DNA of 35,125 bases from NCBI GenBank assembly GCA_903932045.1, contig CAIZES010000464.1:1-35125 (forward strand), given 5' to 3'. This DNA is from an uncultured Silvanigrella sp. GTDB lineage: Bacteria; Bdellovibrionota_B; Oligoflexia; Silvanigrellales; Silvanigrellaceae. The position numbers and the translations under genes were made by a program. The notes beneath the pieces were generated by a model. That model saw only the letters and a list, made by a program, of their open reading frames with translations. It searched no databases and was not told the origin of the DNA. Shown piece after piece: positions 3,501 to 25,081 of this stretch. Each line of letters opens with the position of its first letter. Within the stretch, counting starts at the first letter, position 1.

Positions 3501-3998
3501 ATGCTTACAGCAGAAACTGTTATCAAGCAATTAGCACTTTCCCCCCTTGAAGGCGAGGGAGGGTATTTTCGAAGGACATACGAATCAAAAGAGATGGTTT
3601 TCTTTGAGGGACAAGGCAAGCGACGGTGTGGAAGCGCGATTCTTTTTCTCATCACATCAGAGAATTTTTCCGCATTACACAGACTTTCACACAACGATGA
3701 AATCTTCCATTTCTACGCTGGTTCCTCGTGTGAAATGATCCAAATTGACAGCATTGGAAATCTGCAAACTTATCGCTTTGGCGCAAATCTGACGGAGGGC
3801 GATTACCCACAAATTGTCGTTGAACGTGGGATGTGGCAGGGACTTCGCATTTTGAGTGAAGGGCAATGGGCTCTTATGGGCACTAGTGTAACTCCTGGGT
3901 TCGAATTCGAAGATTTTGAGATTGGAATTCGTGAGCATCTTCTTGCTGCATTTCCTCAGCATCATAAAGAAATTATACGTTACACGAGGATATCGTGA
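3501..3998 (+). CDS. DUF985 cupin-like protein
   Basis: The 165 residues match the DUF985/Cupin_5 family (PF06172, including yeast YML079w) almost motif for motif. In order they are PLEGEGGYFRRTY near residue 15, AILFLIT, a LHRLSHNDEIFHFYAG block with the cupin H-x(n)-E-x(n)-H pattern, then GMWQG, LMGTSVTPGFEFEDFE and a C-terminal IIRYTR. Family members adopt a single-domain cupin barrel; some bind nucleotide-sugar-like or other small ligands, but the general function is not established. Cytoplasmic. It lies four bases after the acetyltransferase and overlaps the next gene by four, so it is firmly in the operon. Confidence 0.85.
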   Translation: MLTAETVIKQLALSPLEGEGGYFRRTYESKEMVFFEGQGKRRCGSAILFLITSENFSALHRLSHNDEIFHFYAGSSCEMIQIDSIGNLQTYRFGANLTEGDYPQIVVERGMWQGLRILSEGQWALMGTSVTPGFEFEDFEIGIREHLLAAFPQHHKEIIRYTRIS

Positions 3999-5050
3999 AA
4001 ATACTTTTTGCCGTCTTTCTGTTTATATTTTGGATGACAAACACGCCAGCAGCGTTGGCTCAGTCGCAACATAAATTTGCGACAGCTGAGAAATCACTAT
4101 TGGTCATACACAGCTATTCTGAAAAAAGCCCATGGACACAGGGAATCAATTCAGGTCTCCGAGAGATTTTTAGTCAATCTTCTATTTCTGTTAGGTTCGA
4201 ACCAAGATACTTCTTTGTTGACAATCTGAAAAGAGACTCTCAACTGGCACTCTCTAACGCAAAAAAGGCGCTTCTTGCGGAAATTCGCTCGCAAAAGCAA
4301 CTCAATGCTGTTCTTGTGTGTGATGACGAAGCAGCAGATGAACTTATGCTAAGTTTAAAATCTCTTCCTCTGCCCGTTTTTTTTACTGGGACAAATCGCC
4401 CTGAGGAAAAACTGACATGGTTGACTTCTGCAGATCGCAGCCATGTCACAGGTGTGCTTGAAGTTTATCCTATTCTCGAAACGCTGAAGCTTCTAAAACG
4501 CCTTAAGCCAGATGTGCGTCGGGTTTCGATACTTTCATCAAAAAGTCAATCATCAATACTGGCGGCAGATCTCATCCAGCAGCAAATGAAAAAGCACATA
4601 AATGCGGACGCTTCAGGAATCAAACTAGGAACCACCTCACTAACATCCCGCTTTTCAGATTGGAAAAAATCTGCTCCGCTTCTTGGAAAGCAAAACGACG
4701 CGCTCTGGATTCCTGTTCCATATGAGGTTTTGGATGATAATAATAGGGAAGTTCCTCCAGAGGAAATAGGCGCTTTTTTGCGATCTGTTCTCAACATACC
4801 AACAATTGGGATTATCAGCATTCATACACGCATCGGGCTTCTTGCTGGCATTAATGTCGAAGGTAAAAGCCTCGGCAAGCAATCCGCTGAGCAGATTTTG
4901 CGATACTTCTCCGGAGAAAAGATTGAACAAATTGCCATTGAAAATGTGCGTTTGATGACACTGGAAATCAATGAGACCGAGGCAAAAAGGTTACATCTTT
5001 CCATTCCACATGACCTTTTGGGGTTCGCTCATTTTGTAAAAGATAACTAG
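3995..5050 (+). CDS. Periplasmic ABC-type substrate-binding protein, kinase partner
   Basis: The 351-residue product has a signal peptide (MKILFAVFLFIFWM, cleavage near PAALAQ at about residue 23). The mature part begins LLVIHSYSEKSPWTQGINSGL. This resembles the ABC transporter substrate-binding proteins of PF04392 and the periplasmic sensor proteins placed beside histidine kinases, with two Rossmann-like lobes: NAVLVCDDEAADEL in the first and VRRVSILSSKSQSS at the hinge into the second. No permease or ATPase gene is adjacent. The very next gene (nine bases on) is a membrane histidine kinase, so the protein more likely senses a ligand for that kinase than feeds a transporter. The ligand is unknown. 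The start overlaps the cupin stop by four bases. Confidence 0.72.
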   Translation: MKILFAVFLFIFWMTNTPAALAQSQHKFATAEKSLLVIHSYSEKSPWTQGINSGLREIFSQSSISVRFEPRYFFVDNLKRDSQLALSNAKKALLAEIRSQKQLNAVLVCDDEAADELMLSLKSLPLPVFFTGTNRPEEKLTWLTSADRSHVTGVLEVYPILETLKLLKRLKPDVRRVSILSSKSQSSILAADLIQQQMKKHINADASGIKLGTTSLTSRFSDWKKSAPLLGKQNDALWIPVPYEVLDDNNREVPPEEIGAFLRSVLNIPTIGIISIHTRIGLLAGINVEGKSLGKQSAEQILRYFSGEKIEQIAIENVRLMTLEINETEAKRLHLSIPHDLLGFAHFVKDN

Positions 5051-5058
5051 GAATAATA

Positions 5059-7566
5059 ATGAAAAAAGAGGCACATAAAGAAACGATAGCAAAAGAAAAG
5101 CCCATTAGGACAACGCGTTGGCTTGTAGTATCTGCCGCATGTGTCGTGCTCGCTTTGTTAATTGCAGGTTTTTTTCGTGCACAAGAAGAAGTGTGGGCAG
5201 ATATTGAGGCTACGAAAAATCAATTCAATTCAGAAGTTCAAGCCACACTTCAGAACATGCGTTTTTTGTCTGGCCTCAGTGTTTTTAGAAACTCTATTGC
5301 TTTTCACTCAAGCACATCAATAGAGACGATACTTCAGGAATATCTTCAAAAAGTTGCAGGAAACAGTGTTGTGGCGGCCTCTGTTTTTGACAAGAGTGCA
5401 GTACTTCTTGCAAAGTCATTCTGCCAAACTCCAAATTGTCTTTCCTTCTCTATAATAGAAAAAACGTCGATCGATTCTTTTGTGAAAGCTAAACTCAGCA
5501 CAAATGTTGTGGAAACTGTTCAGGCTAGCTCTCTTGTTGGACTTTTGGGTCGCGACGATATTTACGAAGTGGGTCTCCCAATTTTGGATGATGGCGCAAT
5601 ACAAATTGGTACACTTGTGTTCGTTTTGGACGGAAAAGAACTCTTGATGAAGGCTATTCCATCTCCTGCTGTTTCGATAAATTTATGGAAGATTAGTCTC
5701 AATCAGGCCAAGTCTACTTTTTCAGTGGAAATTTCTTCACGCTCGAAAGCTGTTTGGAATAATTTTTCTAGGCAGCTCGCGCATATTCTTGCGAGTGCGT
5801 TGATTGTGGGGATTTTTGCTTTTATTTTCTTCAATTATCTGGCCAAGAAACTTTTGGTACCATTTTTTTGGCTATCGAAAACACTCGACGAAGTTTCTAC
5901 TGGCAAACAATCTAGCATTGACAATCATAGAAACTCACCAATTGCGAAAATCTGCGTTGATCTGAACCGAGTTCTAGCGCGAATGACTGAAACCCAAAAA
6001 AGACTGATTCAAGCGGAGAGTCTTGCAGTTATTGCACGTACCACTCAAATGCTCGCTCATGATGTCCGTGCTCCATTCTCGAAATTACATACGGTGATAG
6101 ATCTTCTGGAGCGAGCCAAATCTCCAAAAGTACTTGATTCCATCGCAAGTACAATGCTTCCAGATATTACAAAATCGCTGTATAGTGTTGAGTTACTCAT
6201 CGAAAATATTCTCGCTTACAGCGACAATCGCGCTCACATTTTGAGACAAGAAAACCCAGAAGAACTGGTTTATGCAGCTTTGCGCACTCTTGCAACTTAT
6301 CACTCATGCAATGATGTCGCCATAGAGGTTCTTGTCCAACATTCACGCCGCTTTGAAGTTGATAAGACCAGCATATTACGCGTGATGCTCAATATTCTCA
6401 GTAATGCACTTGATTCTCTTGGTGGATTTGGTCGAATTACAATCAAGACCAGTGATTGCAGCATGCAAGGCAGGGATGGAGTTGAAATATCGGTGGATAA
6501 TTCAGGACCTCCCATTCCTTCAGAGGATATTGGACACGTCTTCGATTCCTTTTTTACTAAAGGAAAGAGAGGTGGAACAGGGTTGGGTCTTGCCATAGCT
6601 AAAACATTCGTGGAGGCCCATGGCGGAGAGATTGGGTGCGAATCCTCGGAAAGCGATGGTGTGCGATTCTATTTTCGCATCGCAGCTAGTGAAGGATTGT
6701 ATATTCCAAAGATAGTCAATTTTAATTCTTCTGAAGAGGCTTTCAGAGAGAAAGGAAGCGATTCAAATTCCTCTAAACATCATTTAGGCCTCAATGTTCT
6801 TGTTGTGGAAGATGAAGTTGTATTTCAGCAAGGACTCCTTCAAGGATTAGAATCTCTCTCCACAGATAGTTGTGTAATCACAACATCTCTTGCTGAAAAC
6901 GCCTTTGTAGCACGAGATCTCATTGCACAGTCCACGCCAGACCTTATCCTGCTGGACATCGATCTCGGAGCAAATTCCCCCGATGGCCTTCAGATTCTGA
7001 AGGAGATTCGCGCAAGCAATCTGGCATCCTTCGTATGTATCCACTCAAATCGCGTCTTTTTTGAATCACAAACCTCGCCACAGGAACTAGGGGCAGATGC
7101 CGCGATTCCTAAACCAATGACGTCTGAGAACCTTAGCAAAATCATCGCAAGTGCAATAGAAAAGAAAAATGCCATCCAGAACAAGCCAAGGGTCGCGGTT
7201 GTTGACGATGAACAGTGCTACCTTACGGCGTGGCAAGAAGCCATGACAGATGCGGACGTTATCACGTTTAATGATCCAGAATTATTCTACGACAAAATCA
7301 TTGATAACCAAGAAGTTCTCATGTCGCTAACGTGTATCATTTTCGATTTCTATTTTCGTGGCACAGACATGGATAGGTTAAAACTCGTGCAAACCATTCG
7401 CTCTCGTGGCTTTATGAGACCTATTGTTCTGTCTACGAATGCACCATACAGCAACACAAACGATTCTCAAGATCGATTTGATGTCGTTATCAACAAACGT
7501 GCCATGCGGTTTTCAGATCTCAAAGAGATTCCAGAGATAGCTGCTGCATTGGAACGCACAAAATAA
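5059..7566 (+). CDS. Hybrid sensor histidine kinase with two receiver domains
   Basis: The 835-residue inner-membrane protein has, in order: TM1 (about 21-39), a periplasmic sensor of about 200 residues, TM2 (about 240-262), a HAMP-like linker, a HisKA helix with LAHDVRAP (phospho-acceptor His334), and an ATPase domain with N box NILSNALDSLG near 445, G1 DNSGPPIP near 481 and G2 GGTGLGLAIA near 505. Receiver 1 follows (VVEDE near 582, Asp633 in LLDIDLG, Lys685 in IPKPM). Receiver 2 is next (VVDDE near 714, Asp763 in IIFDFYF, Lys813 in INKRAM). All catalytic residues are present. Receiver 2 is divergent. There is no output domain, so the phosphate must pass to another protein or the receivers must act by binding. 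The gene lies between the periplasmic binding protein, a likely ligand sensor, and an XRE regulator that may be the output. Confidence 0.9.
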   Translation: MKKEAHKETIAKEKPIRTTRWLVVSAACVVLALLIAGFFRAQEEVWADIEATKNQFNSEVQATLQNMRFLSGLSVFRNSIAFHSSTSIETILQEYLQKVAGNSVVAASVFDKSAVLLAKSFCQTPNCLSFSIIEKTSIDSFVKAKLSTNVVETVQASSLVGLLGRDDIYEVGLPILDDGAIQIGTLVFVLDGKELLMKAIPSPAVSINLWKISLNQAKSTFSVEISSRSKAVWNNFSRQLAHILASALIVGIFAFIFFNYLAKKLLVPFFWLSKTLDEVSTGKQSSIDNHRNSPIAKICVDLNRVLARMTETQKRLIQAESLAVIARTTQMLAHDVRAPFSKLHTVIDLLERAKSPKVLDSIASTMLPDITKSLYSVELLIENILAYSDNRAHILRQENPEELVYAALRTLATYHSCNDVAIEVLVQHSRRFEVDKTSILRVMLNILSNALDSLGGFGRITIKTSDCSMQGRDGVEISVDNSGPPIPSEDIGHVFDSFFTKGKRGGTGLGLAIAKTFVEAHGGEIGCESSESDGVRFYFRIAASEGLYIPKIVNFNSSEEAFREKGSDSNSSKHHLGLNVLVVEDEVVFQQGLLQGLESLSTDSCVITTSLAENAFVARDLIAQSTPDLILLDIDLGANSPDGLQILKEIRASNLASFVCIHSNRVFFESQTSPQELGADAAIPKPMTSENLSKIIASAIEKKNAIQNKPRVAVVDDEQCYLTAWQEAMTDADVITFNDPELFYDKIIDNQEVLMSLTCIIFDFYFRGTDMDRLKLVQTIRSRGFMRPIVLSTNAPYSNTNDSQDRFDVVINKRAMRFSDLKEIPEIAAALERTK

Positions 7567-8427: not shown

Positions 8428-8541
8428 GTGGGTCGGTCTCACCGTGAGCGCCGCCCACGCAACGCATCCCGTTTCCCCTCCGGGGGAGGTGCCTTTCAGG
8501 ACGGAGCCCCAAGCGCGGGGAACTCCGAAGGTGAGGGATGC
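8428..8541. ncRNA. Candidate structured RNA, multi-stem
   Basis: The segment can fold into several stems. The first is a long hairpin at 8428-8458: GTGGG, CGG and CTCAC pairing with GTGAG, CCG and CCCAC, with single-base offsets. Then a closing helix of GCATCCC (8464-8470) with GGGATGC (8535-8541) encloses two more. One is CCTCC/GGAGG around a three-base loop (8477-8489). The other is CGGAG plus CCCC (8502-8510) pairing with GGGG and CTCCG (8517-8527), with an AAGCGC loop and an AA bulge. The segment is much more GC-rich than its neighbours and lacks a convincing gene. Strand is undecided: it could be the leader of the par operon (plus), the leader of the 46-residue membrane protein (minus) or an independent RNA. 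No known RNA family is recognised. Confidence 0.4.
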
Positions 8542-8606
8542 TGTGGCGGTGTTCTCTGGTGCGGCTGTCGGATGGTTTTGAAAGAAGATGGACAGGACTT
8601 GGCGTT

Positions 8607-8642
8607 CCACGCTGTGCCAAGGTTTTGCTTGTACCAGCGTGG
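8607..8642. repeat. Inverted repeat, 8-bp arms
   Basis: CCACGCTG (8607-8614) and CAGCGTGG (8635-8642) are perfect inverted arms around a 20-base loop. CTTGGC at 8598-8603 can alternatively pair with GCCAAG at 8616-8621, so two mutually exclusive folds are possible. It lies in the non-coding stretch 8402-8793 upstream of the par genes. Confidence 0.4.
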
Positions 8643-8750
8643 TCTTCCTTGGCGCGCCGGTGCTCGCGCAGGCATTCCACGGAGAGGCAGCGCCATTTTT
8701 GTCGCGCAATGGAAACATTTGCTTTTGCGTATCCGACATGAGAATATACA

Positions 8751-8777
8751 GAAGTACGTGTACCGAAGTATGTATAC
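8751..8777. repeat. Tandem 13-bp repeats upstream of parM-like gene
   Basis: GAAGTACGTGTAC (8751-8763) and GAAGTATGTATAC (8765-8777) are direct repeats with two mismatches and a 14-base period, each holding a near-palindromic core. They end 17 bases before the ParM-like start, overlapping the expected promoter/operator position. In ParMRC systems the ParR protein binds short direct repeats in this place (parC), so this is a plausible half of a centromere or operator. Only two clear copies are seen. Confidence 0.45.
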
Positions 8778-8793
8778 AAGAAAGGAGAATGAG

Positions 8794-9828
8794 ATGATGA
8801 ACGCGACAATGCTGCAAATGATGAGGAGCTACCCTTCAACAATTGCACCGATCCTCGATGGGGATTGGCGCGATACGATGGAACCGGTCCAGTTTGAGTA
8901 CCGAGGACGGAGGCTTGCTGTGGGGTCCATCGTCCACAAGCAGAAGCTGAGTGGCGTTAAGAAGCTCAATTTGTCTGCGGCAGATGAGCAATTCGAGCAG
9001 CTTCTCATTGCTGCGGCCTTAATGGCCAACGCGGATGGAGACATTAACCTGGTGTGCGGTTTTCCCAAGCACACCATCGCTCAAAACACCCAGCTTCTGA
9101 AAACTTATAAGAATCGAAGGTTTGAGATTCCAACCCCAACGGGGGTGAGGACTTTCACCATCCGTTCGATTTGGCCGATGTACGAGGCGGTTGGGCACGC
9201 GCATGGCGTTCGCTATGCCCTTGGGCTCCGGGAGCAGCTTTTTGTTGCATCCATCGGCTTCGGGACGGTTGAAGCGGTGCTCTTGGACACGGAAGGACGT
9301 CCCGTCATGAGCACACTCTTTGGCGAAAAGCTCGGGATCAGGCGAGCCGTCGAGATCTTCAAGGGGTGGTTGCTAAAAGATGGACTTCGAGAGCCAGACT
9401 GCGGTGGTGATGACGCCTGGTACGACAGTGTTCTAATCTCTGCATACCGCAAGGAGCGCCAGGCGTTGCGTGTGGGATCGCAGATTGCGTCGGTGGAGTG
9501 GCTGTACGAACTGGCACTCAAGGCTCTCGAAAACTACGCGTCAAGCCTGCTTGCGCCGAGGATTCTACAGCACATCGACTCAATTGGGTCTGGTGGCGTT
9601 ACCTTCCCAATCACGGGTGGCGGTTCGCTTTATCGCGAAGTGGCGCAGGGGATCAAGGTGATGGCCGAGTCCTATGGACTCCAATTTCGGGAAATTCCAG
9701 AGGATTTGTCGCTGAAATCAGCCGCTCTTGGCTACGCGTTTTTGGCAAAGACCCGAGAGGAGTTTTCCTCAAAAACGTTGATTGCTGACTTTGGAAATTC
9801 CAATACCGTTTACTCATTTATGATCTGA
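8794..9828 (+). CDS. parM: ParM-like actin-family segregation ATPase, apparently circularly permuted
   Basis: The start is ATG 8794 (or 8797) after AAGGAG; the frame stays open upstream but without actin motifs or a better ribosome binding site. The 344-residue product follows the ParM/StbA plan from its second element on: FEYRGRRLAVG, LLIAAALMANADGDINLVCGFP, a phosphate-2 loop ASIGFGT (152-158), and an adenosine-binding TGGGS (274-278), then AALGYAFLA. The phosphate-1 motif that should open the protein is missing there. A matching motif, LIADFGNSNTVYSF, occupies residues 329-342 at the extreme C-terminus. The order of the fold thus seems rotated. It would form ATP-driven filaments that separate plasmid copies, with the RHH protein encoded 16 bases downstream as adaptor. 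ParM-family membership is likely; the permutation is inferred from motif order. Confidence 0.75.
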   Translation: MMNATMLQMMRSYPSTIAPILDGDWRDTMEPVQFEYRGRRLAVGSIVHKQKLSGVKKLNLSAADEQFEQLLIAAALMANADGDINLVCGFPKHTIAQNTQLLKTYKNRRFEIPTPTGVRTFTIRSIWPMYEAVGHAHGVRYALGLREQLFVASIGFGTVEAVLLDTEGRPVMSTLFGEKLGIRRAVEIFKGWLLKDGLREPDCGGDDAWYDSVLISAYRKERQALRVGSQIASVEWLYELALKALENYASSLLAPRILQHIDSIGSGGVTFPITGGGSLYREVAQGIKVMAESYGLQFREIPEDLSLKSAALGYAFLAKTREEFSSKTLIADFGNSNTVYSFMI

Positions 9829-9844
9829 TGGAGGCTTGTTCTGT

Positions 9845-10162
9845 ATGGAAAAAATAAAACGGACAAGGCCATCAAAGAGCGTGACATTTACGCTGAATCC
9901 GAAGAATCCCAACGAGGCAAAGTTGATTGAACTGCTTGAGAAGCGGGTTTCTGTTCGTACATCTTCATATAAACATGCTCTCGGAACAGAATTGATTCGT
10001 GAGTTGGTTTTGATGGGGATGGAAGCTGTCGAAAAGTCGTTTCCGGCTCAGTTTCAAACAGCAAAACCCCAAATGATTCTCAAGGAGGAATTTCACAGCA
10101 AAGAAAGTCACTCGATTATTGGTGCAGGTACTTGTGATCTTTCTGGGACTTCTCCACTTTGA
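9845..10162 (+). CDS. ParR-like ribbon-helix-helix DNA-binding protein
   Basis: The start is ATG 9845, ten bases after GAGG; a TTG at 9836 is too close to that site. The 105 residues begin with a basic segment (MEKIKRTRPSK) and a beta strand SVTFTLNP. A helix with EAKLIELLEKR follows, then LGTELIRELVLMGMEA, a ribbon-helix-helix layout as in ParR and StbB adaptor proteins. The tail after about residue 65 looks disordered, as in ParR proteins where the C-terminus binds the ParM filament. It lies 16 bases after the actin-like gene. It would bind a centromere-like site, possibly the repeats at 8751-8777, and probably also represses the operon. Family membership rests on size, fold pattern and position. 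Confidence 0.65.
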   Translation: MEKIKRTRPSKSVTFTLNPKNPNEAKLIELLEKRVSVRTSSYKHALGTELIRELVLMGMEAVEKSFPAQFQTAKPQMILKEEFHSKESHSIIGAGTCDLSGTSPL

Positions 10163-10232
10163 CCAATGTCGCGAAATTTTCACCTGTTTTTGCCAGCGTT
10201 CTAGTTCTAATGATCAAATCGTTTTCAGGGGG

Positions 10233-10261
10233 TTGCGTCGAGCTGTCTTACAATGTAAGAT
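10233..10261 (+). promoter_or_regulatory. Promoter overlapped by a 15-bp palindromic operator
   Basis: TTGCGT (10233-10238), a 17-base spacer and TAAGAT (10256-10261) form a sigma70-like promoter. A perfect palindrome, TCTTACA-A-TGTAAGA (10246-10260), covers the spacer and most of the -10 box, so a bound dimer would block transcription. The first gene downstream encodes a protein with an N-terminal ribbon-helix-helix domain, a fold that binds such short palindromes, so autorepression is a natural guess. Confidence 0.5.
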
Positions 10262-10304
10262 TGTTTGAACATTCATTACTTCGGTTCAACCGTGGAGCAA
10301 CCCT

Positions 10305-10997
10305 GTGTCGCGACGCCTTCTCAATTTTCGTGTTAGCCCCGATCTTCATGACGACATTCAGAATTGGCTTCGACTAAATCCAGGCGTGAGTTTTACTGAT
10401 CTGGCAAATTCCGCTCTACAGGAATACCTGCGTGGGCATCATTTTATACAAAGAAAGCCTTTAGATCAGGAAGAATTGCAGCTCCCACCATGCAAGACTG
10501 AGTTTCCAGCTGTGGGAAACGACTCGCCCACAATCAAGCGAGCCGTGCGAAACAGTGTCGAATGTTGGATTTCAGCACAAACACAACAGGGGATCTGTAC
10601 GCTACTTCTCAATAAAGTGAGAAAGAAACACCCTGAAGAAACTTACTGGCAGCCGATCACTGGTGGGATCGAAGAAGACGAATCTCCTCACGAGGCTTGT
10701 GTGCGAGAGGTTTTTGAGGAGACGGGAATCTTCCTGACCAAGCACGAAATACGCATGCTTCCGAGTCCGTGGGAGGTTCCGATTGATGGTGAGAATCGCA
10801 TAATCAGAAAGCACATATTCTGGGCTGTCCTCCGAAATGGGAGGCATCCGGTCAGATTATCGGATGAACATATCGGCTTCAACTGGACCCAGGTCAGTGC
10901 TGTGAGAAGTGCGCTGAAGTGGCCAACCGACAAGGAACGTTGGGATCATATTGCTGCCTTGCTAACAAAATCCGCTGCGATCGAAACGCTAGCATAG
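10305..10997 (+). CDS. Ribbon-helix-helix / Nudix hydrolase fusion
   Basis: GTG 10305 is preceded by TGGAG at seven bases. The 230 residues have two parts. Residues 3-44 (LLNFRVSPDLHDDI, SFTDLANSALQEYL) match the strand-helix-helix pattern of ribbon-helix-helix repressors. Residues about 80-225 are a Nudix domain with a perfect Nudix box at 120-142: G120, E126, then REVFEETGI at 134-142 (G-x5-E-x7-R-E-U-x-E-E-x-G-U). The metal-binding glutamates are intact, so hydrolysis of a nucleoside-diphosphate-linked compound is likely possible. The fusion suggests a regulator whose DNA binding responds to a Nudix ligand, as in NrtR, which uses a different DNA-binding domain. It is first in an operon with a ferric transporter (20 bases to the permease gene) and has a palindrome over its promoter. 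Confidence 0.75.
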   Translation: MSRRLLNFRVSPDLHDDIQNWLRLNPGVSFTDLANSALQEYLRGHHFIQRKPLDQEELQLPPCKTEFPAVGNDSPTIKRAVRNSVECWISAQTQQGICTLLLNKVRKKHPEETYWQPITGGIEEDESPHEACVREVFEETGIFLTKHEIRMLPSPWEVPIDGENRIIRKHIFWAVLRNGRHPVRLSDEHIGFNWTQVSAVRSALKWPTDKERWDHIAALLTKSAAIETLA

Positions 10998-11017
10998 CTG
11001 AAAGGAAACGGATCGGG

Positions 11018-12316
11018 ATGGAACTGAGCCTGTGGATGACAGCCCTAGAAAACTCACTCAAGTTGGTATTGGGCACCACAACCATCGCCGTTTTGATAGG
11101 ACTCTTGACGAGTCTTGCCGCGTGGCGCAGCGGATGTGCTGCCGGCCGGCTCCTGCCTCTTCTTAGTCTTGCGGTTCCTCCATATATATTCGTGTATTGT
11201 CTGAGCGAGATCTCGGATTATTTGTCTCCGTGGAGCGCGTCGATTGGAGTTCTGGGGCTTTGTAATTCTGCCTTCATTCATGCGCCATTGACGAGCTTTT
11301 TGAGTCGCCAGGGCGATAGCATTTACGAAGCTGCATTTGTGGCCACGGGGAGTCGACCGCGTTCCTTGCTTCATGTGCTCCGTCCTGCACTGAGCAGTGC
11401 ACTCCCACTTGGGGCAGCAATTGTTGCCTGCGAAGCACTCTCGGATCTTGCCGTAAGTCGCTACTACGGCATCCAGAGTCTGGTTGTCATGTCCTTCACT
11501 TTTTGGTCCGCCAGTATTAGCCTTACAAATATTATTCCCGGACTAGCATTCATCGGTGTTCTTGGTCTTCTCTTCTCGATCTTTGGCAAACGTTTCAAGA
11601 CTGTTCCATTTGCCGCTCGACAAAGAGTCTCACGCCCATTCTATGCGATTATGGCATGTCTCCCCGCTTCTACTGTCATTGGTTTTTGTGTGGGCGTGTT
11701 GATGCATTGGATGCCTCAGGCTCGCAGCACCTCATTTCCTCAGTTGCTGGGAGAGATAGGAAACAGCGGTATTCTCGTTGCAATTGCAACTTTGGGTTGC
11801 AGTGCCCTGGCGCTTCTCATGGTCGTTCTCGGGGTATCTCGACACTTTGTGCGAATCAGTCTTTTTTTGTACGGTATTCCTGCGTTGGTGTTGGCTGCCC
11901 TTCTCCTTCCTATGAGTCGCTGGCTTCCCTATCTCTTTCTCCTCGGAATTGCAATTTTCTTGCGGTTCTCCTGCCTCATGGTCGTCAACATGGATTCTTC
12001 AATGCAATCGCACCAAAAGCTCCAAGAAATGCTAACTGCGACCTGCAATTCAAAAACACGACTGTTGCACCAGTTGCGTCTCTACTCTCCTGGTTTTGTC
12101 TCTGGAATTTGCTTGGTTTCCCTAGATGTTCTTCGCGAGCTACCTATGAGCATGCTTCTGCAACCGTTCAATTTTACAACGCTTGCCATGCGCGTTTATT
12201 ACCTAAGTGCAACGGAGATGCTGAGTTCAATTGCACCAGAAGCTATCGTGCTCTTCTCCATCAGCCTTCTGGTGACCATTATTCTTGCAGGAGTTCAGCA
12301 TGCTTTCACTGCATAA
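11018..12316 (+). CDS. fbpB: Ferric iron ABC transporter permease (FbpB-like)
   Basis: ATG 11018 follows AAGGA; the upstream extension of the frame overlaps the Nudix gene and is not used. The 432-residue protein is highly hydrophobic with about ten to twelve membrane helices, in two homologous halves as in FbpB/SfuB permeases. The first EAA-type loop is EAAFVATGSRPRSLLHVLRPAL, which couples to the ATPase; the second half has a weaker counterpart near QKLQEMLTATCNSKTRLLHQL. It carries substrate released by the periplasmic binding protein across the inner membrane. It overlaps the ATPase gene by 17 bases. Fbp-type systems usually transport Fe3+; the identity rests mainly on the binding protein encoded two genes later. 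Confidence 0.8.
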   Translation: MELSLWMTALENSLKLVLGTTTIAVLIGLLTSLAAWRSGCAAGRLLPLLSLAVPPYIFVYCLSEISDYLSPWSASIGVLGLCNSAFIHAPLTSFLSRQGDSIYEAAFVATGSRPRSLLHVLRPALSSALPLGAAIVACEALSDLAVSRYYGIQSLVVMSFTFWSASISLTNIIPGLAFIGVLGLLFSIFGKRFKTVPFAARQRVSRPFYAIMACLPASTVIGFCVGVLMHWMPQARSTSFPQLLGEIGNSGILVAIATLGCSALALLMVVLGVSRHFVRISLFLYGIPALVLAALLLPMSRWLPYLFLLGIAIFLRFSCLMVVNMDSSMQSHQKLQEMLTATCNSKTRLLHQLRLYSPGFVSGICLVSLDVLRELPMSMLLQPFNFTTLAMRVYYLSATEMLSSIAPEAIVLFSISLLVTIILAGVQHAFTA

Positions 12317-13289
12317 TCTATCGACAAAAATCCCTGCAATCGGACCAATAGATTTTAATACTAACGAACATACGGTTGTCGTTGGCCCAAGTGGAGCAGG
12401 AAAGACAACTCTTTTTCGAGCCATTTTGGGCCTCGCGAACTGCACCGGCGAAATCACTCTCGATAACAGGACGCTGACGCGTGCGGGACGTGCACTTCGT
12501 TTTGGTCCTGGTCGGGGAATGTGTATGGCATGGCAAGACGATCGACTTCTCCCTCATCTCACTCTTCGGGACAATGCCCGCTTGGGTGCCAAACCGAAGG
12601 AGGCCGATGATTGGATGGAACTTCTGCACATCTCTCATCTCGCTGGTCGATTTCCACATGAAATCTCTGGCGGCGAAGCACAGCGTGTCAATCTCGTTCG
12701 TGCATTTGCCAGCAACTGTCGATTGGTTCTACTCGACGAACCGTTTCATGGGGTAGATATTTTCACTATTCGAGATCTTCTCTCCTCCATTTTGAAAAAG
12801 CTTTCCGCTCAAGGTCGCCTTGTTCTCATGATTACTCACGATATTTCTGCAGTCATGGGTGCGTTTTCAAAAATGCTGGTGCTGCAAGAGGGAAAAGTGA
12901 CCACCCATGATTCCATTGAATCCATATACTCTAATCCTCAGAGTCATTGGCTCGCACAATTTCTCGGTGAGTTTTCCTTACTCACAAAAGAAGATATTTG
13001 CTATCTCACGGGAGAAACTCCAGGGCACAACTCGAACGCTTTCGTGAGGCCCGAATGGCTTTCCATCGAAGCTCATCACAGTGTCCAGAGCAACGCGACC
13101 GTTCTCGGCGCTACTTGGCGCGCATCAATTAACCGTATTTTTATTCGTTTTGACTGGCGGGATGGTCCCGTCTCAATGGAAGTTGCGTCCACATCGCATT
13201 ATGTACAGGGAGATCGAATCTATGTTACACTTAAAAAAGTCGCTTATCCTGAGTGGCTTCATAATGAGCCTATCAGCCAACGCGGCTGA
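12300..13289 (+). CDS. fbpC: Ferric iron ABC transporter ATPase (FbpC-like)
   Basis: ATG 12300 is chosen because GCAGGAG precedes it. The 329-residue protein has the full ABC nucleotide-binding set: Walker A GPSGAGKT (29-36), a Q-loop in MAWQDDRLLP, signature ISGGEAQR (122-129), Walker B LVLLDEP (142-148) and the H-loop ITHD (178-181). The last 100 residues (FVRPEWLSIE onward) are a TOBE-like regulatory domain typical of the spermidine/Fe3+ ATPase subfamily. It dimerises on the cytoplasmic face of FbpB and drives transport with ATP. It overlaps the permease gene at its 5' end and the binding-protein gene by 68 bases at its 3' end. Confidence 0.85.
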   Translation: MLSLHNLSTKIPAIGPIDFNTNEHTVVVGPSGAGKTTLFRAILGLANCTGEITLDNRTLTRAGRALRFGPGRGMCMAWQDDRLLPHLTLRDNARLGAKPKEADDWMELLHISHLAGRFPHEISGGEAQRVNLVRAFASNCRLVLLDEPFHGVDIFTIRDLLSSILKKLSAQGRLVLMITHDISAVMGAFSKMLVLQEGKVTTHDSIESIYSNPQSHWLAQFLGEFSLLTKEDICYLTGETPGHNSNAFVRPEWLSIEAHHSVQSNATVLGATWRASINRIFIRFDWRDGPVSMEVASTSHYVQGDRIYVTLKKVAYPEWLHNEPISQRG

Positions 13290-14262
13290 ACTCCGCGTTA
13301 TTTCTGATGACGAAGACTATCATTTCAGACCTCTTCTCGAACAGTTTGAAAAAGATACTAAAATTACAGTTAAAGCAGCTTACGTCGAGGAAGGAGAACT
13401 CGCCGTTCGCGTGCTTGCAAATCCTGACGAGTTTGACGTAATATTTACACAGGACATGAGTCTTCTAGCTCTCCTGAAGATCAAGGGAATGACCACTCCT
13501 ATTGTGGGGAGCAAAAAACTTACTTCCGTACCAGCATATTTAAAAGATAAGGCTGGTCATTACGTCGGACTTGCCTACAGACCTCGGGCCATTATTTACA
13601 GCACCGAACGTATCAAGGTGGATTCACTCACAGGTTATTCCGATCTGATCAGTCCAAAATTCAAGGGGCGAGTCTGCGCTCGCTCGCTAGATCACACATA
13701 TAATATCACCTTATTGTCAGAGATGATTGTTGATCAGGGCGAAGAGAAGGCAAAGGAATTTGCGCACAATCTTGCCGATAATCTTGCCATGAAAAGTGAA
13801 GGTAACGACCGCAAGCAGGCGCTCTTCATTAGCGATAACAAGTGTGACATCGCACCATTCAACACGTATTACTACAACCTGATGCGTTTGGAACAAGAAG
13901 ATCTTCATGAAGCAGCCGCAAAGACACGTATTTTCTTTCCCGATCAAGCAGGAAAAGGGGCTTACGTTCTCGTTACAGGCGGAGCAGTTGCAAAGAAATC
14001 CAAGGATGTGAAGGACGCGGTTCGTCTCATTGATTACGTTCTCGACTCCTATGGTCAGAGAATGATGGCCGAAAAGAATTACGAGTATCCTGTAATTTGG
14101 AAGGGAGATCTCCCCGCGACTTTCAACGTTTTGGGAGAAAACCAAGCAGGCATTAAGAACGGAAAAGCAAAACTCAATTGGATTGACTACGAGAAGATGG
14201 CTACTGCAAGAGAAACGGCGGCTAAAATCTTGGCAGAAGAGAAAGCCAGATCGGGAAAATAA
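13222..14262 (+). CDS. fbpA: Ferric iron-binding periplasmic protein (FbpA-like)
   Basis: ATG 13222 has GGGAG nine bases upstream and gives a clean signal peptide of 21 residues (MLHLKKSLILSG..SANA, then AELRV). The 346-residue precursor matches class II ferric-binding proteins: FDVIFTQDMSLLALLKIKGM, an LAYRPRAIIYSTERI hinge and a YNLM-flanked tyrosine cluster (Y216, Y217, Y218) where FbpA proteins use adjacent tyrosines to hold Fe3+. It captures iron in the periplasm and passes it to FbpB. The start lies within the ATPase gene (68-base overlap in another frame), which is unusually long for this operon. No canonical Fur box was found near the operon promoter. Confidence 0.85.
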   Translation: MLHLKKSLILSGFIMSLSANAAELRVISDDEDYHFRPLLEQFEKDTKITVKAAYVEEGELAVRVLANPDEFDVIFTQDMSLLALLKIKGMTTPIVGSKKLTSVPAYLKDKAGHYVGLAYRPRAIIYSTERIKVDSLTGYSDLISPKFKGRVCARSLDHTYNITLLSEMIVDQGEEKAKEFAHNLADNLAMKSEGNDRKQALFISDNKCDIAPFNTYYYNLMRLEQEDLHEAAAKTRIFFPDQAGKGAYVLVTGGAVAKKSKDVKDAVRLIDYVLDSYGQRMMAEKNYEYPVIWKGDLPATFNVLGENQAGIKNGKAKLNWIDYEKMATARETAAKILAEEKARSGK

Positions 14263-14271
14263 TGTTGTCCT

Positions 14272-14928
14272 CTATTGTTCCCTTCTTTCCTTCAACAAAT
14301 CCATCAGCTCCGAGTAAATGATGTTGAGTCTTTCACTGGTGGCCTCGTCTTTTTTGTTTTTTGTCAGAGCGTGGCGGCACAATTGCTGCTCAAAATGGAG
14401 CATTTCTTCATAAGGGAGTTCCACGATCTTTTTCATGATGCTCACGAGCCATGCACCTTTGTCTGGAATATACCGAGTTGGTTTGGGCGTGATATGCTTA
14501 AATGAATCCATAAATTCCTTGAGGTCATCGTCGGGAATTGTGCGGAACCACTTCGCCCACTCGGTTTTTACTGGACTGCCCTTGGCTGCCTCGGGGATCT
14601 GCTCGTTGCCGAGCTTCATCAGTAGCTCCGCTGGGGTCATTCCGTCCCGCGTTGCAACGCGCTCCAAGAATTCAAGCTGAACGCCGCGCGGTCCAAATTT
14701 TCCGCTCTCGTACTGGTAATAGGTCATCATGCCCACGCCCAGTTCCTGCGCGATTTGCGCCTTTGTTTTTGCTGGATCGCGGTTTTTTTTCAGGTATTCG
14801 CCAAGCATTTCTGAGTATATTTGGATCTGACTCGGGTCTTGATCCTTATTGGGGCTGGCGTTGCGTTTTTTGGGTGAGCCGTGGGCACGAGTCTTGTCGT
14901 GCGGCGCCGCATTAGGTTTTCGTTCCAT
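14272..14928 (-). CDS. XRE-type helix-turn-helix regulator, divergent from the transfer genes
   Basis: ATG 14928 is preferred (preceded by AAGGGA); the frame extends 63 bases further upstream without a better site. The 218-residue protein has a basic, disordered N-terminus of about 35 residues. An XRE helix-turn-helix follows, with KTKAQIAQELGVGMMTYYQYESG. The C-terminal helical domain holds VKTEWAKWFRTIPDDDLKEF, KIVELPYEEMLHFEQQL and a charged tail. It is transcribed away from the coupling-protein gene across a 233-base divergent region full of shared sequence elements, the classic position of a local repressor or activator of transfer. It resembles the XRE protein at 7584-8132 in layout and in short C-terminal motifs. 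It ends nine bases from the convergent fbpA stop. Confidence 0.75.
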   Translation of the reverse strand: MERKPNAAPHDKTRAHGSPKKRNASPNKDQDPSQIQIYSEMLGEYLKKNRDPAKTKAQIAQELGVGMMTYYQYESGKFGPRGVQLEFLERVATRDGMTPAELLMKLGNEQIPEAAKGSPVKTEWAKWFRTIPDDDLKEFMDSFKHITPKPTRYIPDKGAWLVSIMKKIVELPYEEMLHFEQQLCRHALTKNKKDEATSERLNIIYSELMDLLKERREQ

Positions 14929-14983
14929 AGTAGGTACATCCCTTTGGTTCGATTGATTGTCTCGCTTCAATAAACGAAAGCAT

Positions 14984-14994
14984 ATACACAACCA
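14984..14994. promoter_or_regulatory. ATACACAACCA motif, repeated at 21034-21044
   Basis: The 11-mer ATACACAACCA at 14984-14994, upstream of the divergent XRE gene, recurs exactly at 21034-21044 upstream of the pilin promoter. Its first eight bases recur at 15107-15114 in the coupling-protein promoter spacer. Nearby, 15011-15018 is the palindrome GCATATGC. A shared regulator site is the simplest reading. Confidence 0.4.
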
Positions 14995-15101
14995 ACAGTT
15001 ATCCTCATTAGCATATGCGAAACTCTGTAGAAAGTCACTTTTGGACGACCGGATTCTTCTTCAGTCTGCCTTGCGACCAACACCCCTCCATATACATCTT
15101 G

Positions 15102-15129
15102 TTGACATACACAAAATAGTATCTACAAT
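15102..15129 (+). promoter_or_regulatory. Promoter of the coupling-protein operon
   Basis: TTGACA (15102-15107), 16 bases, TACAAT (15124-15129): a strong sigma70-type promoter 33 bases before the GTG start at 15162. The -35 and spacer start (TTGACATACACAAA) match the pilin promoter with one change. ATCTACA (15121-15127), the complement of TGTAGAT, overlaps the -10 box, and the palindrome GTGTACAC (15134-15141) lies just downstream, both suitable for a regulator. Confidence 0.65.
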
Positions 15130-15161
15130 GCAAGTGTACACAATGATGGAGGTGTGCGCCA

Positions 15162-17297
15162 GTGGTACAGAGAGCAACAAATAAGGAAGACAATCAGAAT
15201 GCAGGGTTCGCCCTCATCCTGCTGGTAGGGGTGGCTTTGGCGGGTGGGTGGTTTCTCCTGGGAGAACGCCGCCGTGCAGAGGCTGAGTACATCCTTTGGG
15301 CGCAGAACTCGGGGGCATCGGTTCTGACTGTGCTGTCATGGGCCTTTGCTGGGCTTGCCCTGGTATTACTGCTTCGAAAGCGGACCAAGTATCTCACAGA
15401 AGAACTGCGCGAGGGTTTAAGAAGTGCAGCATTATATGACCTATCATGGCGCATGAAGTTCAAGATCTTTGTGCCACATTTCGTATTCTGCGGTGCTGCG
15501 TTTCTTGGATATTTGTTTCTCTATTTGCGAGGGGATGTGCGTTGGTTCTTTTTTGACTTTCTTGCGGCCAAAGATAACGTTAATTTGAGAGTATTTCTTC
15601 TTCTCTCGACCACGATTCTTCCCGTCATTCTCATTCCTGCTTATGTGACATTTTTTCTCAATGGATCTGGAATGGCTCACAGGTGGCGCGTTCATGTCAC
15701 CGGGCTTCCAGACAAAGAAAAGGTGACAACCAGGACGCTGCCAGAACCGGGGGAGTATCATGAGGGTCGCAGGCGGCCTGTATTTCTCCTGGGTGCGCGT
15801 GAGTCATCCAAATCGCTAAAATTTGAAAAAGACGTGAAGATTCCTAGTTGGGTACTGTTTTCATTCCCAATGATATACGGCGGTCTCATTGTTTTTGGCA
15901 AAAAAGGTTCTGGAAAAACGAGCCTTCTTCTGAGAATTCTCGAAGATGCCATTCGCTTTAAGGCCGATGATCCAAAATTAAAGTGTTCGATTTGTTTCAT
16001 TGATATTAAGGGTGATGTTGCAAATTTTCTCGAAAAAAAGTCAAAAGAATATGGCAGGGAATCAGATTTTGTGCGACTTGGCATTGAATCATTTGCGAAA
16101 TGGAATCCGTTTGCGCATTTGGGACCGCAATCCCGCGCCATCGAAGTCCGCGCTTTGAGCTTCTGGCTTCGCTGTGCCATGGGAAATGGGGCAGCCTCCG
16201 CCAAGGATTCTTTTTGGGACGACAATGCCGATAACCTCCTCTTTCGATCGATACATTTGCTGGCTCTTGCTGGGGAAGCGGTATCATTTAGTTCCATATA
16301 TGGCATGATAACAGAGCTGCGAGACGACAGTTCGTATCGCGATGATCTCTTCACTAGAGCAGAACTCATTATCAATCAAAGAGGAGTTGAGGGTTCTCCT
16401 TGGCAGGATGAACTGGAAGACACGCGGCGATATTTTGACAAAGAATTTGTTGTTCTCGACAATAAAATTAAGTCTACCGTGGTAAATATTGGTGGAAATT
16501 TTTTGCAGAAGTTTCTCACCGCCGAATACAAACAGGCGTTTTGTTGCGCGGCCAACACACCAGGTCACTTTGGGGGATTTCGCGATCTTATTGCCGATGG
16601 CAAGATTTTTGTGCTTGATATTCGGAGCAATGAACATGGCACCATCGCCAACGCGCTCGGAACGTTGGTAAAGCTAGCCTATCAAGCCGCAGTAAAAACA
16701 CGCGATAAATATGCACGCGACGAAATGGTGCGCTCAACTGTTTTTTGCATGGACGAAGCCCAAGCGTTCATTTCTCCTTCCAGCGCCGGTACGGAAGGTG
16801 ATGACAAATACCTTGAAATGTCGCGCTCATTTCTTGCGGTAGACATCTACGCAACACAGCAATACACCTCCTTTAAGGCATCTGTTGGAGCTGATGTTGC
16901 ACAACGAATCATTGGATCGTTCAATAATATTATTTGTTACAAACACAATGACCCAGAGCTGACAAGATACATTCAATCCATTCTTGGAAACGAGGAACAG
17001 CAAGAGAAAAGTCTCAATATTTCAGAAAGTGCGAGCAGCGCCACTCCAGATGTGTTGACGTCTGGCGGAACAGTCGAAACGGATCATCAAGTATCACGTT
17101 CGGTATCTCTGCAAAAAAAAGAGAAGCCACTTGTCGATGCCGCTGTTTTCAAGAGTCTCACAACCTTTGAGGCAATTGGCATTTTTGATTGTCCGAATGG
17201 GCTTCAAGTCTCACGATTTTGCACAAAGCCTCATTTTGTGGACGCAAGAATGCCGCATGTGAAAGTGCTCGAAACTTTACAAAAACAGGCGGACTAA
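15162..17297 (+). CDS. traD: Type IV coupling protein (TraD/VirD4 family)
   Basis: GTG 15162 is set by GGAGG nine bases upstream. The 711-residue protein has several N-terminal membrane helices (about 16-34, 55-72, 103-122 and 143-168), more than the two usual for F TraD. A cytoplasmic ATPase domain follows, with Walker A GKKGSGKT (246-253), a C-x-x-D-I-K-G-D strand and Walker B VFCMDEAQAF (from 527). The TraG/TraD C-terminal signature region (FLAVDIYATQQYTSF, IICYKHNDPELT) comes after. It would bind the relaxosome and drive DNA into the secretion channel. The C-terminal tail after about 630 is Ser-rich, then ends in a conserved-looking domain. It starts a five-gene operon; the TraU-like gene begins two bases after its stop. 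Confidence 0.9.
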   Translation: MVQRATNKEDNQNAGFALILLVGVALAGGWFLLGERRRAEAEYILWAQNSGASVLTVLSWAFAGLALVLLLRKRTKYLTEELREGLRSAALYDLSWRMKFKIFVPHFVFCGAAFLGYLFLYLRGDVRWFFFDFLAAKDNVNLRVFLLLSTTILPVILIPAYVTFFLNGSGMAHRWRVHVTGLPDKEKVTTRTLPEPGEYHEGRRRPVFLLGARESSKSLKFEKDVKIPSWVLFSFPMIYGGLIVFGKKGSGKTSLLLRILEDAIRFKADDPKLKCSICFIDIKGDVANFLEKKSKEYGRESDFVRLGIESFAKWNPFAHLGPQSRAIEVRALSFWLRCAMGNGAASAKDSFWDDNADNLLFRSIHLLALAGEAVSFSSIYGMITELRDDSSYRDDLFTRAELIINQRGVEGSPWQDELEDTRRYFDKEFVVLDNKIKSTVVNIGGNFLQKFLTAEYKQAFCCAANTPGHFGGFRDLIADGKIFVLDIRSNEHGTIANALGTLVKLAYQAAVKTRDKYARDEMVRSTVFCMDEAQAFISPSSAGTEGDDKYLEMSRSFLAVDIYATQQYTSFKASVGADVAQRIIGSFNNIICYKHNDPELTRYIQSILGNEEQQEKSLNISESASSATPDVLTSGGTVETDHQVSRSVSLQKKEKPLVDAAVFKSLTTFEAIGIFDCPNGLQVSRFCTKPHFVDARMPHVKVLETLQKQAD

Positions 17298-17298
17298 T

Positions 17299-18558
17299 AT
17301 GAAAAAAGCGATCAATAAAACACTGCTATTTCTTTCTTTTGTTGTGGCAACAAAGGCGCAAGCGGTGCCTTTTCACGGCTGCACCTTCTACAAAGAACGC
17401 CTCCAAGCCTGGTCGTGGCCCGGTGGAATGAACACCGGGTGCGCCAGTTTTTCTGCAAATTATGGCAGTTGTACAAAGCAAAAATGCGGATTTTGGGGCT
17501 GCATTACCTATTCGGGATATTGGGTTCAAGGCTGGCTGCCAGACTACTTTCTCGAAGTCAACACGGTCATGGGAAAGTCTGCATTTTCGGATTCAATAGA
17601 TGGCATTGCGCTGCGAAAACATATGGAAATAGCCAAGAATTGGTGGAGATCCAGCCTTGCAAATGTCAATCCCTTTGAGCGCGGGGTGCGCGACAACTCC
17701 TATGAGTTTGGCTCAGACCACAAACTGCTCTATTCGCGGGCGTTAAGTATTCCCTACGGAACGGTGGGGTGGTCAATACCCACCATTGGCTCCTCTGCGG
17801 GTTCGGCAATGCCAGCTTGCTTCAAGGCCATTTCTGAGCTGGCGCCAGCAACCTGGAACGATCTCCCAACTTCAGGGGACAGGAAGACAGCAGCGGTGTG
17901 GAGCCCTATCACGGCGTTGGTCTGCGGGGGAGCTGCGCCAATTGCCGGAGCCGCCCAGACCGCAAAGACCATCATCTCAAACTTTCCCATCCCTACCGGC
18001 ACAATGCCGGACTCCGGTTTGCCTGGTGGCTGCGCCTTACCACTTCCTGTTTGGGCTCAAACGGTGGGAGGGCTTACAGGCCAGGGTGCTACGGCTCCCA
18101 ACTGCATGGGAGCGCTTGGACCCTTGTTGCCGCGAACGGGGTGGGTCTGGGCTCCTGATCAATTTACAGCCAACCAGCAGGCAGCCTGGCGCATTGCTTC
18201 CTTGGCAGAGGACTACTTTCACATGGGTGTTGGGGTTCAACCTGAGGACAAGTGGCAGCAGGTGTGGCCTGTGACCCCGCGAGCCCAATGCTTCTCGCCA
18301 GGTGGTTTGGACAGACCCAACAATTTCGAGCCAACCACATACACGGGCGACCGGATCACGGGTATTTTTCCGCCGATCCCCTTTAGCGACACACCATACC
18401 GACAAGGACTTTCCGACGCGGTGTTTGCGGTTTGGCGCAAGCGTGGAACGTGTTTGGAACCTTGGGAAGGAGTTGCTGCTATCGCAGACATCGAAGCTGC
18501 ATACTATCTACGTGTTGCAGCATGTAAATCACTCAACACATTGGACGGTATGCCATGA
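17299..18558 (+). CDS. traU: TraU-like conjugal transfer protein (PFL_4710/TIGR03756 type)
   Basis: The 419-residue protein has a signal peptide (MKKAINKTLLFLSFVVATKA, cleavage near AQA). The mature N-terminus is rich in cysteine and aromatics (GCTFYKERLQAWSW, GCASF, GSCTKQKCGFWGCITYSGYW), followed by VQGWLPDYFLEV. This cysteine/tryptophan pattern and 'surface-LPD' stretch fit the TraU family in its genomic-island form. TraU proteins act in the periplasm and are needed for DNA transfer rather than pilus assembly. The many cysteines would need a disulfide catalyst, and a CxxC thioredoxin-like protein is encoded three genes downstream. The 3' two thirds of the gene are noticeably richer in GC than the neighbours. 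It overlaps the next gene by four bases. Confidence 0.7.
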   Translation: MKKAINKTLLFLSFVVATKAQAVPFHGCTFYKERLQAWSWPGGMNTGCASFSANYGSCTKQKCGFWGCITYSGYWVQGWLPDYFLEVNTVMGKSAFSDSIDGIALRKHMEIAKNWWRSSLANVNPFERGVRDNSYEFGSDHKLLYSRALSIPYGTVGWSIPTIGSSAGSAMPACFKAISELAPATWNDLPTSGDRKTAAVWSPITALVCGGAAPIAGAAQTAKTIISNFPIPTGTMPDSGLPGGCALPLPVWAQTVGGLTGQGATAPNCMGALGPLLPRTGWVWAPDQFTANQQAAWRIASLAEDYFHMGVGVQPEDKWQQVWPVTPRAQCFSPGGLDRPNNFEPTTYTGDRITGIFPPIPFSDTPYRQGLSDAVFAVWRKRGTCLEPWEGVAAIADIEAAYYLRVAACKSLNTLDGMP

Positions 18559-19109
18559 AATACAAATCTATTGTGTCCATATTCGTAGTGTCAATGTCGG
18601 AAGCCAATGCGGACAATCTTACGTGGTTTTCCGATTCACAGATGACATTTGATAAATCTGCTCAGGAAAATAATGGCGAAAAACGTCCAGCAAATATAGA
18701 GACTCCTAATCCTTCAAAGGTCGCAAATTCTGGTGTCGAGGCATCTATTGTGCCAGAAAAAAAGGACCAGATCGGTGCTAGAAACGAAGCACACGGGATC
18801 AGGTTTAGTGTTGGCGAATACGGAGCTGAATTGATTTCCATTGCGCCAATGAGTGAGTCGGCAAGCAAGGGTATTTCGCCAAATGAATGCAAAGATCTCT
18901 TTGCAGCGGAGTTTCGTCCAGACGCAAACCTCAGAAAGGCTATCTTGAAGGAAATGCAATTTCCTCTTGAGGCAAATGCGGCTCTTCCAGAAAAATTGCG
19001 GTGGATATTTGGAGGGCACAAGGGCTGCTTTTCAAGAAATACAAAAACATCAAGTCCAAATCTGGAAAATCTCGATGCCGCATTGCGGCGTTTAATTCCA
19101 GCGAAATAG
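18555..19109 (+). CDS. Exported hypothetical protein of the transfer operon
   Basis: The ATG overlaps the TraU-like stop (ATGA). The 184 residues begin with a short, weak signal-like segment (YKSIVSIFVVSMSEANA). A Ser/Asn/Glu-rich, probably disordered stretch covers about 20-85. A folded-looking C-terminal part follows, with GIRFSVGEYGAELISIAPM, ECKDLF and LRWIFGGHKGCFSRN, including two cysteines that could pair in the periplasm. I do not recognise the family. Its place between TraU-like and ATPase genes suggests a structural or assembly role in the mating apparatus. Confidence 0.6.
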   Translation: MKYKSIVSIFVVSMSEANADNLTWFSDSQMTFDKSAQENNGEKRPANIETPNPSKVANSGVEASIVPEKKDQIGARNEAHGIRFSVGEYGAELISIAPMSESASKGISPNECKDLFAAEFRPDANLRKAILKEMQFPLEANAALPEKLRWIFGGHKGCFSRNTKTSSPNLENLDAALRRLIPAK

Positions 19110-19117
19110 GAGTGGAT

Positions 19118-20993: not shown

Positions 20994-21057
20994 TCCTGCA
21001 AAAACCGATAGATGAAAATATTAAAACACAATAATACACAACCATGTATATTGCATC

Positions 21058-21085
21058 TTGACATACGCAAATGTAGATGTATTCT
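21058..21085 (+). promoter_or_regulatory. Promoter of the pilin operon
   Basis: TTGACA (21058-21063), 16 bases, TATTCT (21080-21085). The -35 and following bases (TTGACATACGCAAA) match the coupling-protein promoter except for one base. ATGTAGATGT (21071-21080), touching the -10 box, is identical to 31523-31532 in the third transfer promoter. ATACACAACCA lies 14 bases upstream of the -35 box (21034-21044). The leader to the pilin start at 21149 is about 60 bases. Confidence 0.6.
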
Positions 21086-21148
21086 TAGAGCTGCGGTGGG
21101 TCGTTTGGCAGGGTGCTGAACGCCTCCGAATGGTGCAAGGAGTTTTTT

Positions 21149-21541: not shown

Positions 21542-21556
21542 TAGAAAGGATTAGAT

Positions 21557-21895: not shown

Positions 21896-21912
21896 CGAGA
21901 AAGGAGAACGAG

Positions 21913-23534: not shown

Positions 23535-23536
23535 CC

Positions 23537-24664: not shown

Positions 24665-24676
24665 GAGACGATGAAA

Positions 24677-25060: not shown

Positions 25061-25081
25061 AAGAACGGAGAGGAGGACAAA

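Follow-up and report, generated by a model that had tools for sequence, protein, structure and literature searches.

The window, i.e., the whole stretch of 35,125 nt that was analysed, encodes a protein in which an N-terminal ribbon-helix-helix (RHH)-like domain is joined to a C-terminal Nudix domain. The sequence gives good support to the identification of this protein as a fusion of RHH and Nudix parts that has antitoxin ancestry and stands at the head of a ferric transporter operon on a mobile element. We propose that the fusion acts as an autoregulatory, metabolite-responsive repressor built from the RHH domain of a Doc-type antitoxin and a Nudix enzyme, a reading that we regard as about evenly balanced between right and wrong. 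The features of the locus are as follows.

10233..10261, + strand: putative promoter TTGCGT-17-TAAGAT, weak; overlaps the palindrome
10246..10260, no strand assigned: perfect 7-1-7 palindrome TCTTACA-A-TGTAAGA, candidate operator (family word test)
10305..10997, + strand: RHH-Nudix fusion protein, 230 aa, GTG start
10311..10439, + strand: RHH-like N-terminal domain, antitoxin-type, residues 3-45, of a family adjoining Fic/Doc toxins
10536..10979, + strand: Nudix domain, residues ~78-225 (Pfam, AlphaFold2 and structural matches)
10662..10730, + strand: intact Nudix box, residues 120-142
11018..12316, + strand: ferric-type ABC permease, FbpB-like, long (homology to ferric-operon and plasmid permeases)
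12300..13289, + strand: ABC ATPase, FbpC-like (Pfam ABC_tran, 6.6e-27)
13222..14262, + strand: ferric-binding solute-binding protein, FutA-like (SBP_bac_6, 2.6e-20; match to 2pt1)

The initial annotation placed the start of the gene at 10233. The putative -35 element, TTGCGT, begins at this position, and an in-frame stop lies between 10233 and 10305. The reading frame begins instead with a GTG at 10305, with a plausible ribosome site (GGAG at 10294-10297) ahead of it, and the RHH-like region and the Nudix box are both present in this one frame, as had been described. Since the fusion gene comes from an assembly of 503 contigs (4.22 Mb), a single-instance artefact is conceivable. It is countered by the frame, which is open throughout, and by the codon-position composition, which is ordinary on both sides of the fusion. 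AlphaFold2 (AF2) modelling on a 42-row alignment gave a mean pLDDT of 81.7 for the fusion protein.

The C-terminal part belongs to the Nudix superfamily by both sequence and predicted fold. It matched the Pfam NUDIX family with an E value of 5.2e-15 and a score of 56.1 bits (cut-off 21.1), and this part of the AF2 model had pLDDT values mostly above 90. The Nudix box at residues 120-142, described as intact at the outset, is complete (GX5EX7REUXEEXGU). In the 42-row alignment of the fusion and its relatives, R134, E135, E138 and E139 do not vary, and E126 hardly does. With these catalytic residues intact, the Nudix part looks like a catalytically competent enzyme. The fold searches were run with residues 77-226 of the fusion, and the two top structural matches were Ap4A hydrolases, 4ijx_B (VIA Z 17.9, rmsd 2.3, 139 aligned) and 1ktg_A (Z 17.8, rmsd 2.2, 135 aligned). 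NudB, YmfB and MutT-type proteins came within one or two Z units of them, so that the structural matches point to no single substrate. The best NCBIfam score was obtained for the NudB equivalog, 43.9 bits against a cut-off of 103.

An intact active site is also what one would expect if the fusion were primarily a Nudix enzyme of the nucleotide polyphosphate type. The RHH part would then serve for dimerisation or be an antitoxin remnant, the palindrome would be a chance occurrence, and the ferric genes would be cargo that happens to lie downstream. The relatives of the Nudix domain favour this explanation as well. An alignment-based scan, not exhaustive because it relied on a pair of short peptide patterns, found 79 loci of this widespread stand-alone type in many phyla (a single-protein scan found none), and all 79 encode stand-alone Nudix proteins. 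An RHH domain was found in 0 of the 79, neither in the same frame nor in a matching RHH frame of the DNA examined around them; the Streptococcus loci L017, L018, L021, L025 and L028 are stub ORFs and were covered by the all-ORF scan only. An extension of the L020 alignment to residue 27 of the fusion was rejected as spurious. Since none of the 79 relatives had an RHH domain and none lay near a ferric permease or binding protein of this type, these loci indicate that there is no conserved link between this Nudix type and ferric transport. Sequence-limited searches of 58 genomes of the phylum, plasmids, phages and viral contigs returned no further RHH-Nudix fusion, two scans returned no viral relatives, and a targeted literature search found no such fusion in titles and abstract openings. 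We consider a protein that is primarily a Nudix enzyme to be a real though lesser possibility.

The N-terminal residues 3-44 had been described as resembling an RHH domain. This assignment was supported through a family of small relatives and through the predicted helices, but not in direct comparison with the known RHH families. No Pfam family at all matched the N-terminus at E<=10, PHROGs and PDB sequences gave no direct RHH recognition, and hhalign found no direct match between the single fusion N-terminus and RHH_1 members. Against a profile built from genuine RHH_1 proteins of related genomes the fusion scored -0.4 bits, and 364 of 1904 scored shuffles were equally good. Helices at residues 12-24 and 30-45 were predicted both by AF2 on the alignment (pLDDT ~75-82) and in a single-sequence run (~50-57). 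In the AF2 monomer, which had no alignment depth at the N-terminus, residues 3-9 are extended and form no strand.

Comparison of the N-terminus alone with 56 genomes (own and relatives) identified small proteins of ~80-120 residues, the best with an E value of 7e-4. A profile of these small relatives, built without the fusion, gave the fusion 35.3 bits (E 5e-13), and 0 of 2000 shuffles (1761 scored) and 0 of 473 ORFs of the window came anywhere near this score; the profile rows had been picked by similarity to the fusion, so that the test is partly circular and not fully independent. After removal of the odd member L112, the fusion still scored 29.0 bits. The small-relative family in turn aligned in register with RHH_1 across 47 columns, with an hhalign E of 7e-4 and a probability of just 25.9, and one of 150 column-permuted controls reached its score of 23.7, the next best being 16.1. 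The profile kinship of the fusion to RHH proteins thus runs solely via the small relatives, and through this family the N-terminal domain is supported as RHH-like. In the alignment, the small relatives follow the pattern of the fusion; two of them carry N-x-R or N-x-K at the strand, which the fusion keeps. Retention of the pattern of its closest antitoxin relatives argues against a protein that is primarily a Nudix enzyme.

Genes with Fic/Doc motifs adjoin the family genes in 8 of 12 loci (6 of the first 9 and 2 of the 3 later ones, the misses being L099, L111, L112 and L165). L111 is a near-duplicate of L099; it was kept in this count and left out of the promoter counts. L166 was rejected as a family member, since by eye it is probably an HTH protein, and was removed before the promoter counts. 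Three of the neighbouring genes were tested and all are Fic/DOC by Pfam. Two neighbours were compared with the NCBIfam death-on-curing model, of which one passed and the other fell just short (38.5 vs 38.65 bits). Matches to the family occur in 11 of the 58 genomes of this small phylum, one being a doubtful HTH protein, and one Doc module of the family sits in the host genome itself (L113, G000:C408). The RHH-like antitoxins beside the Doc toxins (L113, L095-L098, L100, L163 and L164) are missed by Pfam and NCBIfam at their cut-offs. Since the genes of its relatives adjoin Fic/Doc toxin genes, the fusion has, by kinship, an RHH half of the antitoxin type. Autorepression is usual among type II antitoxins, and this is a first reason why autoregulation of the fusion gene would be expected.

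The same kinship, including the Doc module in the same genome, would suit an orphan antitoxin-like factor that acts on other loci, such as the host Doc modules, the nearby parMR-like genes or those for transfer, in which case the ferric operon would be incidental. The position of the gene, which adjoins parM-like genes and the F-type transfer region, points the same way. However, the conserved C-terminal antitoxin tail on the toxin side (HADALERLK type) is absent from the fusion in the alignment, and no Doc motif was found within ~1.5 kb of the fusion gene (L094), which sets it apart from a Doc-type module. Moreover, the palindrome is located in the promoter region of the fusion gene itself. 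We consider an orphan factor very unlikely.

Judged from its gene content, the window belongs to a conjugative element. The F-type conjugative transfer region at 15162-28230 contains matches to a TraD-like coupling protein, a T2SSE ATPase, TraF, TraK, TrbI, TraV and TraC, and a strong TTGACA-16-TACAAT promoter (15102-15129) is located before the traD-like gene. An XRE-type HTH gene (14272-14991, minus strand) is oriented away from the transfer genes and is perhaps a transfer regulator. Directly upstream of the fusion, at 8428-10162, are genes for an actin-like protein (ALP_N, PHROG partition protein) and then a 108-residue protein, which form a parMR-like pair; the 108-residue partner had no family match and no plasmid relative. 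The gene at 5059-7566 encodes an 835-aa hybrid sensor kinase, which contains both a histidine kinase core and a receiver domain. It is preceded by the genes of a Cupin_5 protein (3501-3998) and then of an ABC_sub_bind protein (3995-5050).

The perfect palindrome was confirmed and lies 44 bp before the start of the fusion ORF. It is the sole exact copy in the 4.22-Mb assembly, and near matches across the genome showed no excess (14 sites vs 12 in the control). In the 142-bp intergenic gap, a palindrome that has 7-bp arms and a gap of at most 1 would arise by chance with a probability of ~0.02, or 0.12 when gaps up to 12 are allowed, and the whole window contains 9 comparable palindromes vs ~5 expected. 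By these numbers the palindrome taken alone is mildly improbable and weak evidence for an operator, and they also favour the explanation in which the fusion is primarily a Nudix enzyme. The promoter had been described as covered by the palindrome. The sequence TTGCGT-17-TAAGAT does overlap it, but the match is poor and the consensus scan gave no promoter there. No Rfam match that would indicate a regulatory RNA was found in 9800-15200 at E<=1.

The words of the palindrome arms, TTACA/TGTAA, occur within 60 bp upstream in 7 of the first 8 family loci vs 15 of 135 control genes, and the number of occurrences before the 8 family genes is 9 vs 2.06 in shuffles. Among the later, held-out family members only one of three has the word, and therefore it is not universal in the family; one held-out member without it has GCTACAT-AG-ATGTAGC upstream. 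Inverted TACA/TGTA pairs precede 4 of 11 family genes vs 0 of 135 controls (Fisher 1.8e-5), a comparison in which the pair was chosen post hoc, several loci are closely related and some control genes do not lie at promoters. Any TACA/TGTA was found upstream of 9 of 11 family genes vs 40 of 135 controls, with the caveat for these counts that TACAAT resembles a -10 box. The family promoters give moderate support to the palindrome as a putative operator for this type of RHH protein. The presence of its words in the promoters of the antitoxin relatives also speaks against a protein that is primarily a Nudix enzyme.

The fbpBCA-like genes reported 20 bases downstream of the fusion proved to be those of a permease, an ATPase and a FutA-like binding protein. 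The permease starts at 11018, 20 bp past the stop of the fusion, which is the longest gap inside the operon. The two genes that follow, for the ATPase and the binding protein, each overlap the one before. No Pfam permease family matched the product of 11018..12316, which is homologous to the permeases of the ferric operons of relatives and to plasmid genes for an 'iron ABC transporter permease'. The binding protein matched FutA1 (2pt1) with an E value of 1.9e-40 and its first matches were iron-binding proteins, which places it with FutA/FbpA. In the chromosomal paralogue operon of the host, the binding protein comes first, followed by the permease and the ATPase, and no match to the fusion protein was found near the ferric operons of relatives in the DNA stretches examined. 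Since the paralogue has another order and the relatives are without an RHH-Nudix match, the fusion-headed ferric operon is differently built.

As had been noted, no Fur box is visible upstream of the operon. The best match was 10/19 in 10163-10304 (shuffle P 0.78) and 11/19 in 300 bp (P 0.66). The comparison with related ferric operons covered 9 of 17 relatives having a ferric binding protein, and a Fur-like site was found upstream in 8 of these 9 operons (shuffle P <=0.03), with a P of 0.085 for the ninth (L137). The Fur-like pattern gave 13 strand-matches across the own genome vs 3 in the control, and none in the window. However, the chromosomal paralogue of the host (L132, G000:C236) differs from its relatives in that no Fur box can be recognised there either (11/19, P 0.63). 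From these scans, the missing Fur site is real, yet not distinctive within this host. Because the paralogue is without one too, the absence of the box is not by itself proof of the alternative control of iron transport that the initial annotation had suggested.

Fur, Zur and PerR sites also have a 7-1-7 form. The palindrome might be the site of another regulator of this kind, e.g., a Fur-superfamily protein, with the RHH-Nudix gene as its target, and a Fur homologue is indeed encoded in the genome (E 3.9e-33). Such a regulator is at odds with the best Fur-consensus match upstream, which is at chance level, and with the palindrome being unique in the genome, where near matches are no more frequent than in the control. 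We regard this explanation as quite improbable.

In the autoregulatory repressor that we propose, an RHH dimer of the fusion would bind the TTACA/TGTAA half-sites of the palindrome over its own promoter and would repress the whole co-directional operon, i.e., the genes for RHH-Nudix, the ferric permease, the ATPase and the binding protein. The hold on DNA would be loosened when a nucleotide-type metabolite occupies the Nudix cleft, and the Nudix domain would reset the switch by hydrolysing this metabolite. The antitoxin-type RHH half and the TTACA/TGTAA words shared by the family promoters lend support to the earlier idea of a repressor that senses a ligand; the DNA binding, repression, transporter control, ligand response, catalysis and reset of the fusion are inferred. 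The most far-reaching version, in which a self-resetting, metabolite-sensing repressor destroys the nucleotide that releases it and governs Fur-independent ferric import on a conjugative element, appears unlikely in its entirety.

Several known systems resemble the fusion in part. PutA is an RHH repressor fused to proline-catabolic enzymes that controls a transporter gene. It is a precedent for a fusion of an RHH repressor with an enzyme, whereas its enzyme, ligand and origin differ from those of the fusion. The RHH antitoxins of the Fic/Doc modules in related genomes have the N-terminal 45-50 residues and the TTACA/TGTAA promoter words in common with the fusion. They come with a toxin gene and the C-terminal tail, whereas the fusion has neither and carries a Nudix domain in place of the tail. 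The closer stand-alone Nudix proteins (Thermus plasmid H1, Streptococcus, Desulfomicrobium and others) are ~29-39% identical to the Nudix part of the fusion and have the K/R-x-S-I/V-E-C-W and F/YWQP-I/V-TGG motifs, but no RHH domain and no ferric neighbours. Asymmetric Ap4A hydrolases have a Nudix fold like that of the fusion and are its best structural matches, and NudB (dihydroneopterin triphosphate diphosphatase) gave the best curated score, which is well below the cut-off.

The NrtR family (NrtR, NdnR, BtAraR) is similar in design, as it combines a Nudix-fold effector with a DNA-binding domain in repressor-type proteins that have a palindromic operator in their own operon. One of the structural matches of the fusion was Shewanella NrtR (3gz8), through its Nudix domain (Z 15.7, rmsd 5.7, 139 aligned). 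According to PMC4666351 and PMC6800001, the Nudix domain of NrtR-type regulators is N-terminal, their winged helix is C-terminal and their Nudix motif is impaired, and several of them are inactive enzymes, in agreement with the contrast drawn in the initial annotation. The fusion differs on both counts: it ends with the Nudix domain, its N-terminal DNA-binding part is RHH-like, and its Nudix box is intact, unlike the impaired motif described in PMC4666351. Since it departs from both defining features, the fusion is not a member of the NrtR family, though it is NrtR-like in its proposed logic and may work in a similar way. The Nudix-type transcription factors described so far combine a winged helix with a dead active site. 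If our proposal is true, the combination of an RHH domain with a live active site would represent a second origin for Nudix-type regulators, traced to a toxin-antitoxin repressor, and one could ask whether catalysis tunes repression. The mobile element would then import iron under a control that is not shared by the host Fur.
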